This document shows positions 32,239 through 35,127 of a stretch of 64,000 nt of DNA, piece after piece. The position numbers were made by a program, and so were the translations under genes. Within the stretch, counting starts at the first letter, position 1. Each line of letters starts with the position of its first letter. The stretch comes from an uncultured Poribacteria bacterium (lineage in GTDB: Bacteria > Poribacteria > WGA-4E > WGA-3G). The notes under the pieces were generated by a model, which was not told the origin of the DNA, did not search any database, and worked only from the letters and a program-made list of their open reading frames with translations. The DNA lies in contig OX639973.1 in NCBI GenBank assembly GCA_951828385.1, forward strand, positions 2,843,200 to 2,907,199. Direction: 5' to 3'.

Positions 32239-33201
32239 ATGATTGAAGTCCAAAATATCACCAAAAACTATGGTCCCTTCCAAGCACTCAAAGACATCTC
32301 CTTTCAGGTAGACAAGGGACAAATCGTTGGATTCTTAGGTCCAAACGGTGCGGGGAAAACCACAACGATGCGCATCCTCACCTGCTTCATGCCGGCGAGT
32401 AGCGGACGCGTTACTATCGCTGGATATGATGTTTTCAAAGAATCGAGAGAGGTTCGCAAACGCATCGGGTATCTCCCAGAAAACGTGCCACTCTACCCAG
32501 AAATGACGGTGACGAAATACCTCAAGTATATGGCAAAAATCCGTAGCGTGCCGCGCGGTAACATCAAAGCGCAGTTGGACAACGCTATAGAGGCGTGTGG
32601 ACTCACCGAACGCAGGCATCAAATTATAGGTCAATTATCTCGCGGGTTCCGGCAACGCGTAGGTTTAGCACAGGCTCTTATCCATGAACCGGATGTTCTA
32701 ATCCTCGACGAGCCCACCTCTGGACTGGACCCACGGCAAATTGTTGAAATCCGTGAATTAATCAAGGCACTCGGCAAAGAGCGCACAATCCTATTCAGCA
32801 CCCACATCCTACCGGAAGCGAGTATGACCTGTGAACGGTTGATTATCATTAGCAGTGGTGAAATTACGGGGGATATCCAGTTAGAAGACGGCCGCGCTGT
32901 ACCCCAGCAAAACGATGCTTCTGTCAGCGATCCGGAAAGCACATCACGAGCCCCCTTAACGCTCTCTCTTGAGATAGCAGGCGCGCCAGCCGACGACATC
33001 TTGGCTGCGCTTACGGACATTCCAAACGTGGTTCAGGTCGAACAGACCGATGACACCACAATGTTCCGTCTTCACTATACACCCACAACCGATATTCGGG
33101 CAGAAGTCGCAGAAACCATCGTTGGACGCGGGTGGCGATTGCTTGAAATGCACACAACTGAAATGTCTTTGGAAGAGTTGTTCCTATCTTTAACGGTGTA
33201 G
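32239..33201 (+). CDS. ABC transporter ATP-binding protein (GldA/ABC-2 type)
   Basis: The 320-aa protein has Walker A (GPNGAGKTTTMR), a signature LSRGFRQRVGLAQAL of the LSRGF type seen in GldA/CcmA-like ABC-2 exporters, and Walker B with D-loop (VLILDEPTSGLDPRQ). The H-loop His is in FSTHILPEA. A C-terminal regulatory extension of about 90 residues follows. The usual membrane partner is not encoded next to it: the following gene is on the other strand. The ATG directly follows a repeat and lacks an obvious ribosome binding site. Confidence 0.9.
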   Translation: MIEVQNITKNYGPFQALKDISFQVDKGQIVGFLGPNGAGKTTTMRILTCFMPASSGRVTIAGYDVFKESREVRKRIGYLPENVPLYPEMTVTKYLKYMAKIRSVPRGNIKAQLDNAIEACGLTERRHQIIGQLSRGFRQRVGLAQALIHEPDVLILDEPTSGLDPRQIVEIRELIKALGKERTILFSTHILPEASMTCERLIIISSGEITGDIQLEDGRAVPQQNDASVSDPESTSRAPLTLSLEIAGAPADDILAALTDIPNVVQVEQTDDTTMFRLHYTPTTDIRAEVAETIVGRGWRLLEMHTTEMSLEELFLSLTV

Positions 33202-33247: not shown

Positions 33248-33994
33248 TTACGAGGATTCAAGCGGTAGTTTCAATTGCTCGCGAACTGATCGCCGAACCT
33301 TATCACAAATACGCATCGCGTGTGCTGTTTCGTCCGCAGTCGCGAATTTCCCAGGATAACGCGGATCAACGGCGTGTTCCGACAACTTTGAAAAATCTTC
33401 CCCCCACGCATCCCAAGCAGGAAGAGTCGGGACAATCAGGTTCAATAACTCTTGTAAATCGTGGGGCCTTGGAAAAGGGATGTTTGCCTCTTGAAGCCAC
33501 GCCTTTAGATATTTTTCAACACACTGCTGAGCCAGGAAGCAGATAACATCATTTACCGGATTTTGTCCTTGCTCGGATTGCTGTGCGACAGTATAATCGC
33601 CTTCAGCTTTCTGCACCCATTCTAACGTCAACGGATTCATAGCGCACTGTTCCTTCTTTACGGGTTTCAAGAAAAAATTAGGAGTTTCATAAAGCACCTC
33701 GCCTTTTTCAGTAATCTCTCGGAGAAACCAATCGTTATACCCAAGGCGATACGCCAGGTCTTCAGGCGAATGCACAAGCACATGCAGGCGGAAAGGACGC
33801 GCGAGACGCTCCCGAATCTCTATCTCTTGCTGGCGGGTTTCCGATTTCGCCACCGGCATAACGACCAGCAAATCAACATCGGAGTATTCCGTCGGCGTAC
33901 CATACGCATAAGAACCGAAAAGAACAACCTGTAACGGCGCGAACTCGCGTACGATGTCATCACATGTCGTTTGAATCTCTTGACGGGTAACCAT
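33248..33994 (-). CDS. MNT-HEPN fused toxin-antitoxin-like protein
   Basis: The N-terminal half is a minimal nucleotidyltransferase: GSYAYGTPTEYSDVDLLVV contains the G-S...D-x-D catalytic motif. The C-terminal half is a HEPN domain of about 130 aa (FLAQQCVEKYLKAWLQEA and RPHDLQELL). MNT and HEPN are normally separate, adjacent genes in which the MNT protein AMPylates or neutralises the HEPN RNase; here they form one open frame of 248 aa. I chose the ATG at 33994, 8 nt from AAGGGA; an ATG at 34000 is also possible. An internal ATG at 33640 with its own ribosome binding site could also yield HEPN alone. The gene converges with the ABC ATPase gene. Confidence 0.82.
   Translation of the reverse strand: MVTRQEIQTTCDDIVREFAPLQVVLFGSYAYGTPTEYSDVDLLVVMPVAKSETRQQEIEIRERLARPFRLHVLVHSPEDLAYRLGYNDWFLREITEKGEVLYETPNFFLKPVKKEQCAMNPLTLEWVQKAEGDYTVAQQSEQGQNPVNDVICFLAQQCVEKYLKAWLQEANIPFPRPHDLQELLNLIVPTLPAWDAWGEDFSKLSEHAVDPRYPGKFATADETAHAMRICDKVRRSVREQLKLPLESS
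33638..33657 (-). promoter_or_regulatory. Internal ribosome binding site and start for a free HEPN product
   Basis: Within the fused frame, AGAAGGA (33651-33657, minus strand) lies 10 nt before an in-frame ATG (33638-33640). The product from there (MNPLTLEWVQKAEGDY onward, 130 aa) matches the usual length of a stand-alone HEPN protein. Confidence 0.5.
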
Positions 33995-34203
33995 ATTCAT
34001 TCCCTTTTTTGTTTCGGTGTGTTTATAACAGGAGCGCACAGCGATACAGGCAAACGTATAGGTCAATTATGCCACATCTCCCTCACACACGCAAGAAAAT
34101 TTTAAAATTTAAAAAAGAATTGATTTCTAAATGTATCTATTGTATAATCAACGCCACGCAATCACTTAAACAAGGAGCCGCGATCGCCTTAAAAATAACC
34201 GCT

Positions 34204-35127
34204 ATGAAACTCGTTACCTTTCAAACCCAATCAGCAGACGCAACACCAAAACTCGGCGCATGGACGACTGACGACCAAATTGTTGACCTCACGGCAGTCG
34301 CCTCAGACATGTACGAATTCTTTGAAAAGAATTGCATCGCTGACGCACAAAAACATATTGACCAGACGGCTAATAGCAGCTTCCCTGTTGCTGACGTGCA
34401 ACTGCTCGCACCGTTTCCACGTCCAGCAAGCCTTCGGGATTTCGGCGTATTTAAGACCCACATGGATGCTGCCTCACGTATCACAGGTAAAGAAATCTCC
34501 CAGGAGTGGTTCAAACTGCCCAACTATTACCGCGGCAGTACCAGTCCGTCCTCTATTGCCGGGCACGAAGCCGTTGTTACATGGCCCAACTACACCGAAA
34601 GACTCGACTTTGAACTCGAATGGGGGATCTACATCGGGAAAACCGGAAAAAATATCTCCATAGAAGAAGCCCCCGAGTACATCGCCGGTTATACCATTTA
34701 CAACGACATCAGCGCACGCGACATCCAGTTCCGCCACATGACGCTGGCACTCGGTCCCGCCAAAGGAAAGGACTTTGACAACAGCAATATCATGGGACCC
34801 TGTCTCGTAACGCCAGATGAAATCCGTGATCCGTATAACCTCCGAATGATTGCCAGAATCAACGGCGAAGTCTGGTCAGACGGCAATACATCGGATATGT
34901 ATTACTCCTTCGCTGAGATGATCTCGTTCGTCTCACAATCAGAAACGCTGCATCCCGGTGAATTTTTAGGGTCCGGCACCGTCGGAAATGGGTGCGGATG
35001 GGAACTCGACCGCTGGATTCAACCGGGGGACATCGTTGAACTTGAAATCGAGAATATCGGTGTACTCAGAAACCAAATCGGTGAACCAGAAGTGAACCCC
35101 GCAGAATGGACAGAAAAGGGACTTTAG
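34204..35127 (+). CDS. Fumarylacetoacetate hydrolase family protein
   Basis: This is a 307-aa FAH-fold protein. The metal and catalytic region is visible in FELEWGIYIGKTGKNIS, AGYTIYNDISARDIQFR and GPAKGKDFDNSNIMGP, and the C-terminal barrel ends with GSGTVGNGCGWELDRW. Family members hydrolyse or decarboxylate 2,4-diketo acids and related compounds. The start at 34204 gives a standard N-terminus (MKLVTFQT); AAGGAG is 20-30 nt upstream, further than ideal. The SDR gene starts 34 bp after the stop, suggesting a joint catabolic step such as deoxy-sugar acid breakdown (inference). Confidence 0.9.
   Translation: MKLVTFQTQSADATPKLGAWTTDDQIVDLTAVASDMYEFFEKNCIADAQKHIDQTANSSFPVADVQLLAPFPRPASLRDFGVFKTHMDAASRITGKEISQEWFKLPNYYRGSTSPSSIAGHEAVVTWPNYTERLDFELEWGIYIGKTGKNISIEEAPEYIAGYTIYNDISARDIQFRHMTLALGPAKGKDFDNSNIMGPCLVTPDEIRDPYNLRMIARINGEVWSDGNTSDMYYSFAEMISFVSQSETLHPGEFLGSGTVGNGCGWELDRWIQPGDIVELEIENIGVLRNQIGEPEVNPAEWTEKGL

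Follow-up and report, generated by a model that had tools for sequence, protein, structure and literature searches.

Pairs of a minimal nucleotidyltransferase (MNT) and a HEPN protein are one of the most abundant types of toxin-antitoxin module. In the HepT/MntA system, the RX4HXY motif of HepT is the site of RNase activity and of AMPylation, and residues D39, D41, and D71 of S. oneidensis MntA bind Mg (PMC7641770). The complexes formed by two-gene systems contain HEPN in excess, with HEPN:MNT ratios of 6:2 or 4:1 (PMC7641770, PMC11586414). Fusion of MNT and HEPN (PF05168) domains was already described in 2013 (PMC3710099), and the gene family analyzed here is already known as such a domain fusion. 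The copy under study lies in a 64,000-nucleotide stretch of Poribacteria DNA, the whole of which is called the window below. An initial annotation had described MNT and HEPN fused in one frame, with AGAAGGA and an in-frame ATG located where a separate HEPN gene would begin. Both observations held: the 248-codon frame from 33994 to 33248 is uninterrupted by stops, and the motif and ATG (M119, 33640-33638) are present exactly at that position. The strand, which the initial annotation did not give, is minus; a plus-strand reading of 33248-34000 was rejected after 8 stops were found in it. The features of the gene are as follows.

33248 to 33994, minus strand: fused MNT-HEPN gene of 248 amino acids, open from the ATG at 33994 to the TAA at 33248, with 142 fused homologues.
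33686 to 33994, minus strand: MNT domain, residues 1-103, from Pfam and conservation.
33688 to 33717, minus strand: first copy of the MNT tail, codons EKGEVLY, from comparison with two-gene relatives.
33641 to 33685, minus strand: linker, residues 104-118, coil in the predicted model (pLDDT about 77-82).
33638 to 33667, minus strand: putative repeat of the MNT tail (second copy), which runs in the HEPN frame and carries the inner ribosome binding site (RBS) and ATG, from register identity to the first copy.
33651 to 33658, minus strand: inner Shine-Dalgarno (SD) sequence AAGAAGGA, 10 nt upstream of the inner ATG.
33638 to 33640, minus strand: inner start codon ATG (M119), in frame with the fused gene.
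33251 to 33640, minus strand: HEPN domain (PF05168), residues 119-248, from Pfam, conservation, and the predicted model.

The fused gene stands alone between its two neighbors, an ABC transporter gene ending at 33201 and a plus-strand frame with a likely start near 34205. A sigma-70 promoter scan found no minus-strand site above threshold. Both domains scored above the Pfam cut-offs (NTP_transf_2, PF01909, residues 15-77, E 1.2e-11; HEPN, PF05168, residues 125-239, E 2.7e-19), and both were matched in 66 of 66 homologues (Pfam, E <= 0.001).

We identified 142 distinct uninterrupted fused homologues, designated family A, from 98 related genomes. Five fused copies are present in the genome of the window, the four further ones at 63-67% identity, and single genomes gave as many as 15 matches to the query. 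Genomes of genus g2 had 13-15 matches each. At L079, L091, G038:C2:2276571-2278974, and G041:C206, fused MNT-HEPN genes lie in tandem arrays of three, all pointing the same way. The initial annotation had named a stop at the junction in relatives as a sign of assembly error. No such stop was found in intact same-family relatives when the full match lists of 21 genomes were searched again. Of these genomes, 20 belong to that family and carry fused copies; the exceptions encountered were partial or broken copies. One same-family locus with a stop-start overlap (L046) was treated as degraded and left out because its HEPN is truncated. Removal of a stop by assembly or sequencing error is already refuted by these relatives, with 142 distinct uninterrupted homologues and five in a single genome, and we regard it as practically out of the question.

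In sister families of the Poribacteria order, the closest relatives consist of two overlapping genes. The same is true of the closest relatives in Kiritimatiellota, Verrucomicrobiota, Chloroflexota, Thermodesulfobacteriota, Myxococcota, and Planctomycetota. In this two-gene form, HEPN starts at an ATG that lies within the MNT codons for LYE, LHE, or similar but in another frame, and the MNT codons directly upstream of it contain a purine-rich SD. The fused genes instead carry the MNT tail EKGEVLYE in its normal frame, followed by a variable linker and then by a related stretch, in the HEPN frame, before the HEPN ATG. In the window, the first copy (TATGAA, ATG at 33690) marks the position of the out-of-frame HEPN start of the two-gene relatives. 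When the first copy was compared with the linker end in family A, identity was 52% at the register predicted from the two-gene form (n = 142) and averaged 25% at other registers (z 6.7); in the HEPN frame, the residues read KKDTCF-MNPLTLEW in the two-gene form and KKEQCA-MNPLTLEW in the fused form. A repeat of the overlap is therefore the best reading of the linker end. While the initial annotation correctly noted that no stop lies at the junction, its supposition that a stop separates the genes in two-gene relatives was not borne out, as they are parted by a frame shift with overlap; partial duplication is for this reason preferred over stop loss. The sequences thus give good support to partial tandem duplication across the overlap as the apparent origin of the fusion, which would have joined the frames.

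A second fused family, family B (L006 type), is approximately 35% identical to family A and usually occurs once per genome. Its two-gene and fused forms read PNKKDTSF-MQITDRLADTARW and PNKEVQAA-MQTADRLEDTARW, respectively, and its first copy was 58% identical to the linker end at the predicted register (n = 29, z 6.3). Trp or Cys replaces the Tyr codon holding the nested ATG in the first copy of at least 29 of the 31 fused genes, which therefore leaves only the second start there. The two-gene form of family B persists within the same genus as the fused form. In a tree built from MNT and HEPN with the linker left out, families A and B were apart on starred branches, two-gene forms occurred in both, and the fused/split character required at least three changes. 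The two-gene pair L041/L042 was placed inside the family A fused group with 84% support, which may mean repeated fusion within family A, or reversion. From these comparisons, Poribacteria, which are sponge symbionts, appear to have joined the overlapping pair in one gene at least twice. MNT-only remnants were found as well; one example from family B lies in the genome of the window (L007, G000:C1:5031775-5032128), and in it HEPN is truncated after about 30 codons and the nested start has changed from ATG to ATC.

We then considered whether the inner start is kept. In family A, it is ATG in 123 and GTG in 10 homologues (133 of 142), confirming that relatives keep it, and in family B it is ATG or GTG in 27 of 31. 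The possibility raised in the initial annotation of a linker conserved without the inner start was the opposite of what we observed: the linker varies (16-32 aa in family A, 14-25 aa in family B) and the start is kept. An SD core (GGAG, AGGA, GAGG, or AAGG) was present in the SD window at the inner site of 100 of 142 homologues (70%), compared to 11.7% at other codon positions of these genes and 129 of 141 real gene starts. Despite the varying linker, the spacing from SD to ATG was mostly constant where a core was found (9-10 nt in family A). Mean anti-SD energy was -5.7 kcal/mol at the inner site, -1.9 at other in-frame Met codons, and -7.9 at true starts; no SD-like window of the family B gene is stronger than its inner SD (mean -8.0 kcal/mol). 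A conserved inner RBS and start at the domain boundary were thus found, the pattern sought for a dual-product gene using internal initiation.

These results could also be explained if the inner RBS and ATG are a relic, inherited from the two-gene ancestor and little or not used, with the fused protein alone being functional. A duplication of this kind copies the RBS in any case, and finding it at the origin of the fusion is therefore no sign of selection. Because M119 lies directly before the first HEPN helix, a constraint at the protein level is possible. The inner start was lost in 13 of 173 genes (families A and B); the tree calls for at least 8 such losses, in which the gene itself was kept, and the SD was weak in 39 of the 160 fused genes that have the start; free HEPN is therefore not essential everywhere. 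The family A inner SD is also weaker than the gene's own start. When synonymous changes were used for a generic test of SD strength in family A, z was -2.8; this seemed strong in isolation but was not extreme, as other windows of the gene, taken as controls, gave comparable values, and the test was dropped as proof. Joint loss of start and SD differed significantly in the raw counts but not when independent pairs on the tree were used. The observation that replacement of Met by Val always yields GTG was likewise dropped as an argument for start selection because a single base change in ATG can give Val only as GTG.

Other features speak against a relic. The family A nucleotide profile, with a conserved AAAAAGGA at -18 to -11 and low information at -7 to -1 before the ATG, resembles an RBS logo with a neutral spacer. 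Lys codon -5, whose AAG forms the AAGGA core, is AAG in 77% of sequences compared to 40% in the genes overall. It showed 5 AAA/AAG changes in 117 sequences, the fewest of all Lys columns, and ranked 5 of 78 two-fold columns by synonymous change; neighboring codons, where synonymous changes are harmless to AAGGA, changed at ordinary rates. Codon -5 is thus slow, and only there do synonymous changes break the core. Retention of the start in two independent fusions argues in the same direction, and we think it unlikely that the inner start is simply a leftover.

Natural deletions were also found. At the syntenic site in one relative (L196), a 337-nt deletion corresponding to window 33995-33659 removed MNT and the linker up to the first SD base, leaving a stand-alone HEPN gene (L196:2990-3411) with its frame intact and its RBS and ATG retained. 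Three fused paralogues remain in that genome. A HEPN-only gene of the same kind, also with RBS and ATG, is present in family B (L272). Production of free HEPN from the inner start is plausible, given that the start is kept, that SD spacing is mostly constant, and that HEPN with its RBS survives loss of MNT.

The residues of both domains bear on what the protein does. The GSX10DXD motif of MNT is intact (G27, S28, D39, and D41 in 142 of 142). Residue 71 (33784-33782) is Asp in 112 of 142 and His in the window copy and 29 relatives (30 of 142); His at 71 is found in the window's orthologue clade, in which R75 is mostly His. Residue 71 was equated with MntA D71 on the basis of equal numbering and its place in the same strand, with no superposition, and on that basis the third metal-binding Asp may be missing and MNT inactive in the window's clade. 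For HEPN, the initial annotation had proposed a check of the active-site residues. The canonical RNase motif Rx4-6H is absent from the conserved columns of the 142 homologues, but H178 (33463) is kept in 142 of 142 and Y213 in 141 of 142, and R212 is conserved. These residues may form an alternative site like the one put forward for AF0298-like HEPN-T proteins (PMC3710099). The predicted model (pLDDT 91) places the linker in coil and begins a HEPN helix at residue 121, and its HEPN domain matches 1wol and 1ufb (TM about 0.78 by target length). A toxin role for HEPN is uncertain, because Rx4-6H is absent and the window's clade lacks the MNT ligand D71, and the label of HEPN toxin given initially is consequently not established.

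Alternatively, the fusion could be a domesticated single enzyme in which HEPN is an inactive substrate-binding half and some other target is modified, as in aminoglycoside nucleotidyltransferases or HalB; this could hold whether or not the inner start is used. HEPNs fused to MNT are typically devoid of RNase residues (Anantharaman 2013, PMC3710099), as is the case here for Rx4-6H, and HalB and AadA were the best whole-chain folds, although the resemblance is loose. The class II conserved HEPN residues are nevertheless retained, and 30 of 142 copies lack ligand D71 yet are conserved, a misfit with nucleotidyl transfer as the job of the protein. We consider this explanation rather doubtful.

The explanation that we favor is as follows. 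In the ancestor, an overlapping MNT-HEPN pair, the MNT tail would have contained the RBS and start of HEPN in a different frame. Partial tandem duplication across the overlap would have inserted another MNT tail between the domains, read in the HEPN frame, and joined the frames, so retaining the HEPN start inside the fused gene. One transcript would then most likely yield two products, the full-length MNT-HEPN and a free HEPN of 130 aa initiated internally at 33640. Free HEPN would join the HEPN half of the fused protein and supply the HEPN excess known from 6:2 or 4:1 complexes, and mixed assemblies would all keep a tethered MNT. Taken as a whole, with duplication origin, retained start, and fused and free products, this explanation is probable, if moderately so. 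The interpretation in the initial annotation is therefore partly supported; its ratio control by fused and free HEPN is something that we infer from sequence comparison.

These findings describe a concrete route, seen twice in parallel, by which translationally overlapping genes fuse and separate production of the second is not lost, with split, fused, and MNT-deleted alleles found in related genomes. Provided that free HEPN is produced, one gene would determine the HEPN:MNT ratio by itself, a form of dose control. More broadly, and tentatively, since we judge it somewhat short of an even chance, overlapping toxin-antitoxin pairs may become single dual-product genes by duplication of the overlap, with a fusion that guards itself and free toxin at an adjustable dose as the two products; Poribacteria would have done so at least twice, with one family then reaching more than 10 copies in some genomes. 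The origin by a duplicated overlap with the HEPN start retained appears to be new, and a literature search, mostly outside subscription papers, found no earlier fused toxin-antitoxin with an internal start.

Among known systems, the single-chain nucleotidyltransferases HalB (Hailong) and AadA are alike in combining a nucleotidyltransferase with a helical bundle (Foldseek E about 1e-5), but identity is 14-19%, overall TM is about 0.4, and no curated sequence cut-off was reached. Cas8/Cas11 of type I CRISPR, where internal in-frame translation was shown by experiment (PMC11899642), likewise obtains from one gene a large protein and, as an additional free subunit, the C-terminal part of that protein; the proteins are unrelated, and the dual product is experimental there whereas here we infer it. 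HepT/MntA, a type VII toxin-antitoxin of class I, shares the MNT fold and the identically numbered metal-site residues G27, S28, D39, and D41. It differs in its HEPN family, which is PF01934 with RX4HXY compared to PF05168 without RX4HXY here, and in its three-Asp MNT site (D39, D41, D71), which the window copy with H at 71 lacks; the window copy scored 33 bits against the MntA_antitoxin profile (cut-off 60). The nearest system is MNT-HEPN class II (PF01909 + PF05168), which has the same two domains with MNT upstream, GSX10DXD, the conserved Tyr, and no RX4HXY. Class II consists of two adjacent genes, whereas here there is one frame and the two-gene form occurs only in relatives, and the fused gene differs further in keeping the inner HEPN start and in having a duplicated MNT tail as its linker.
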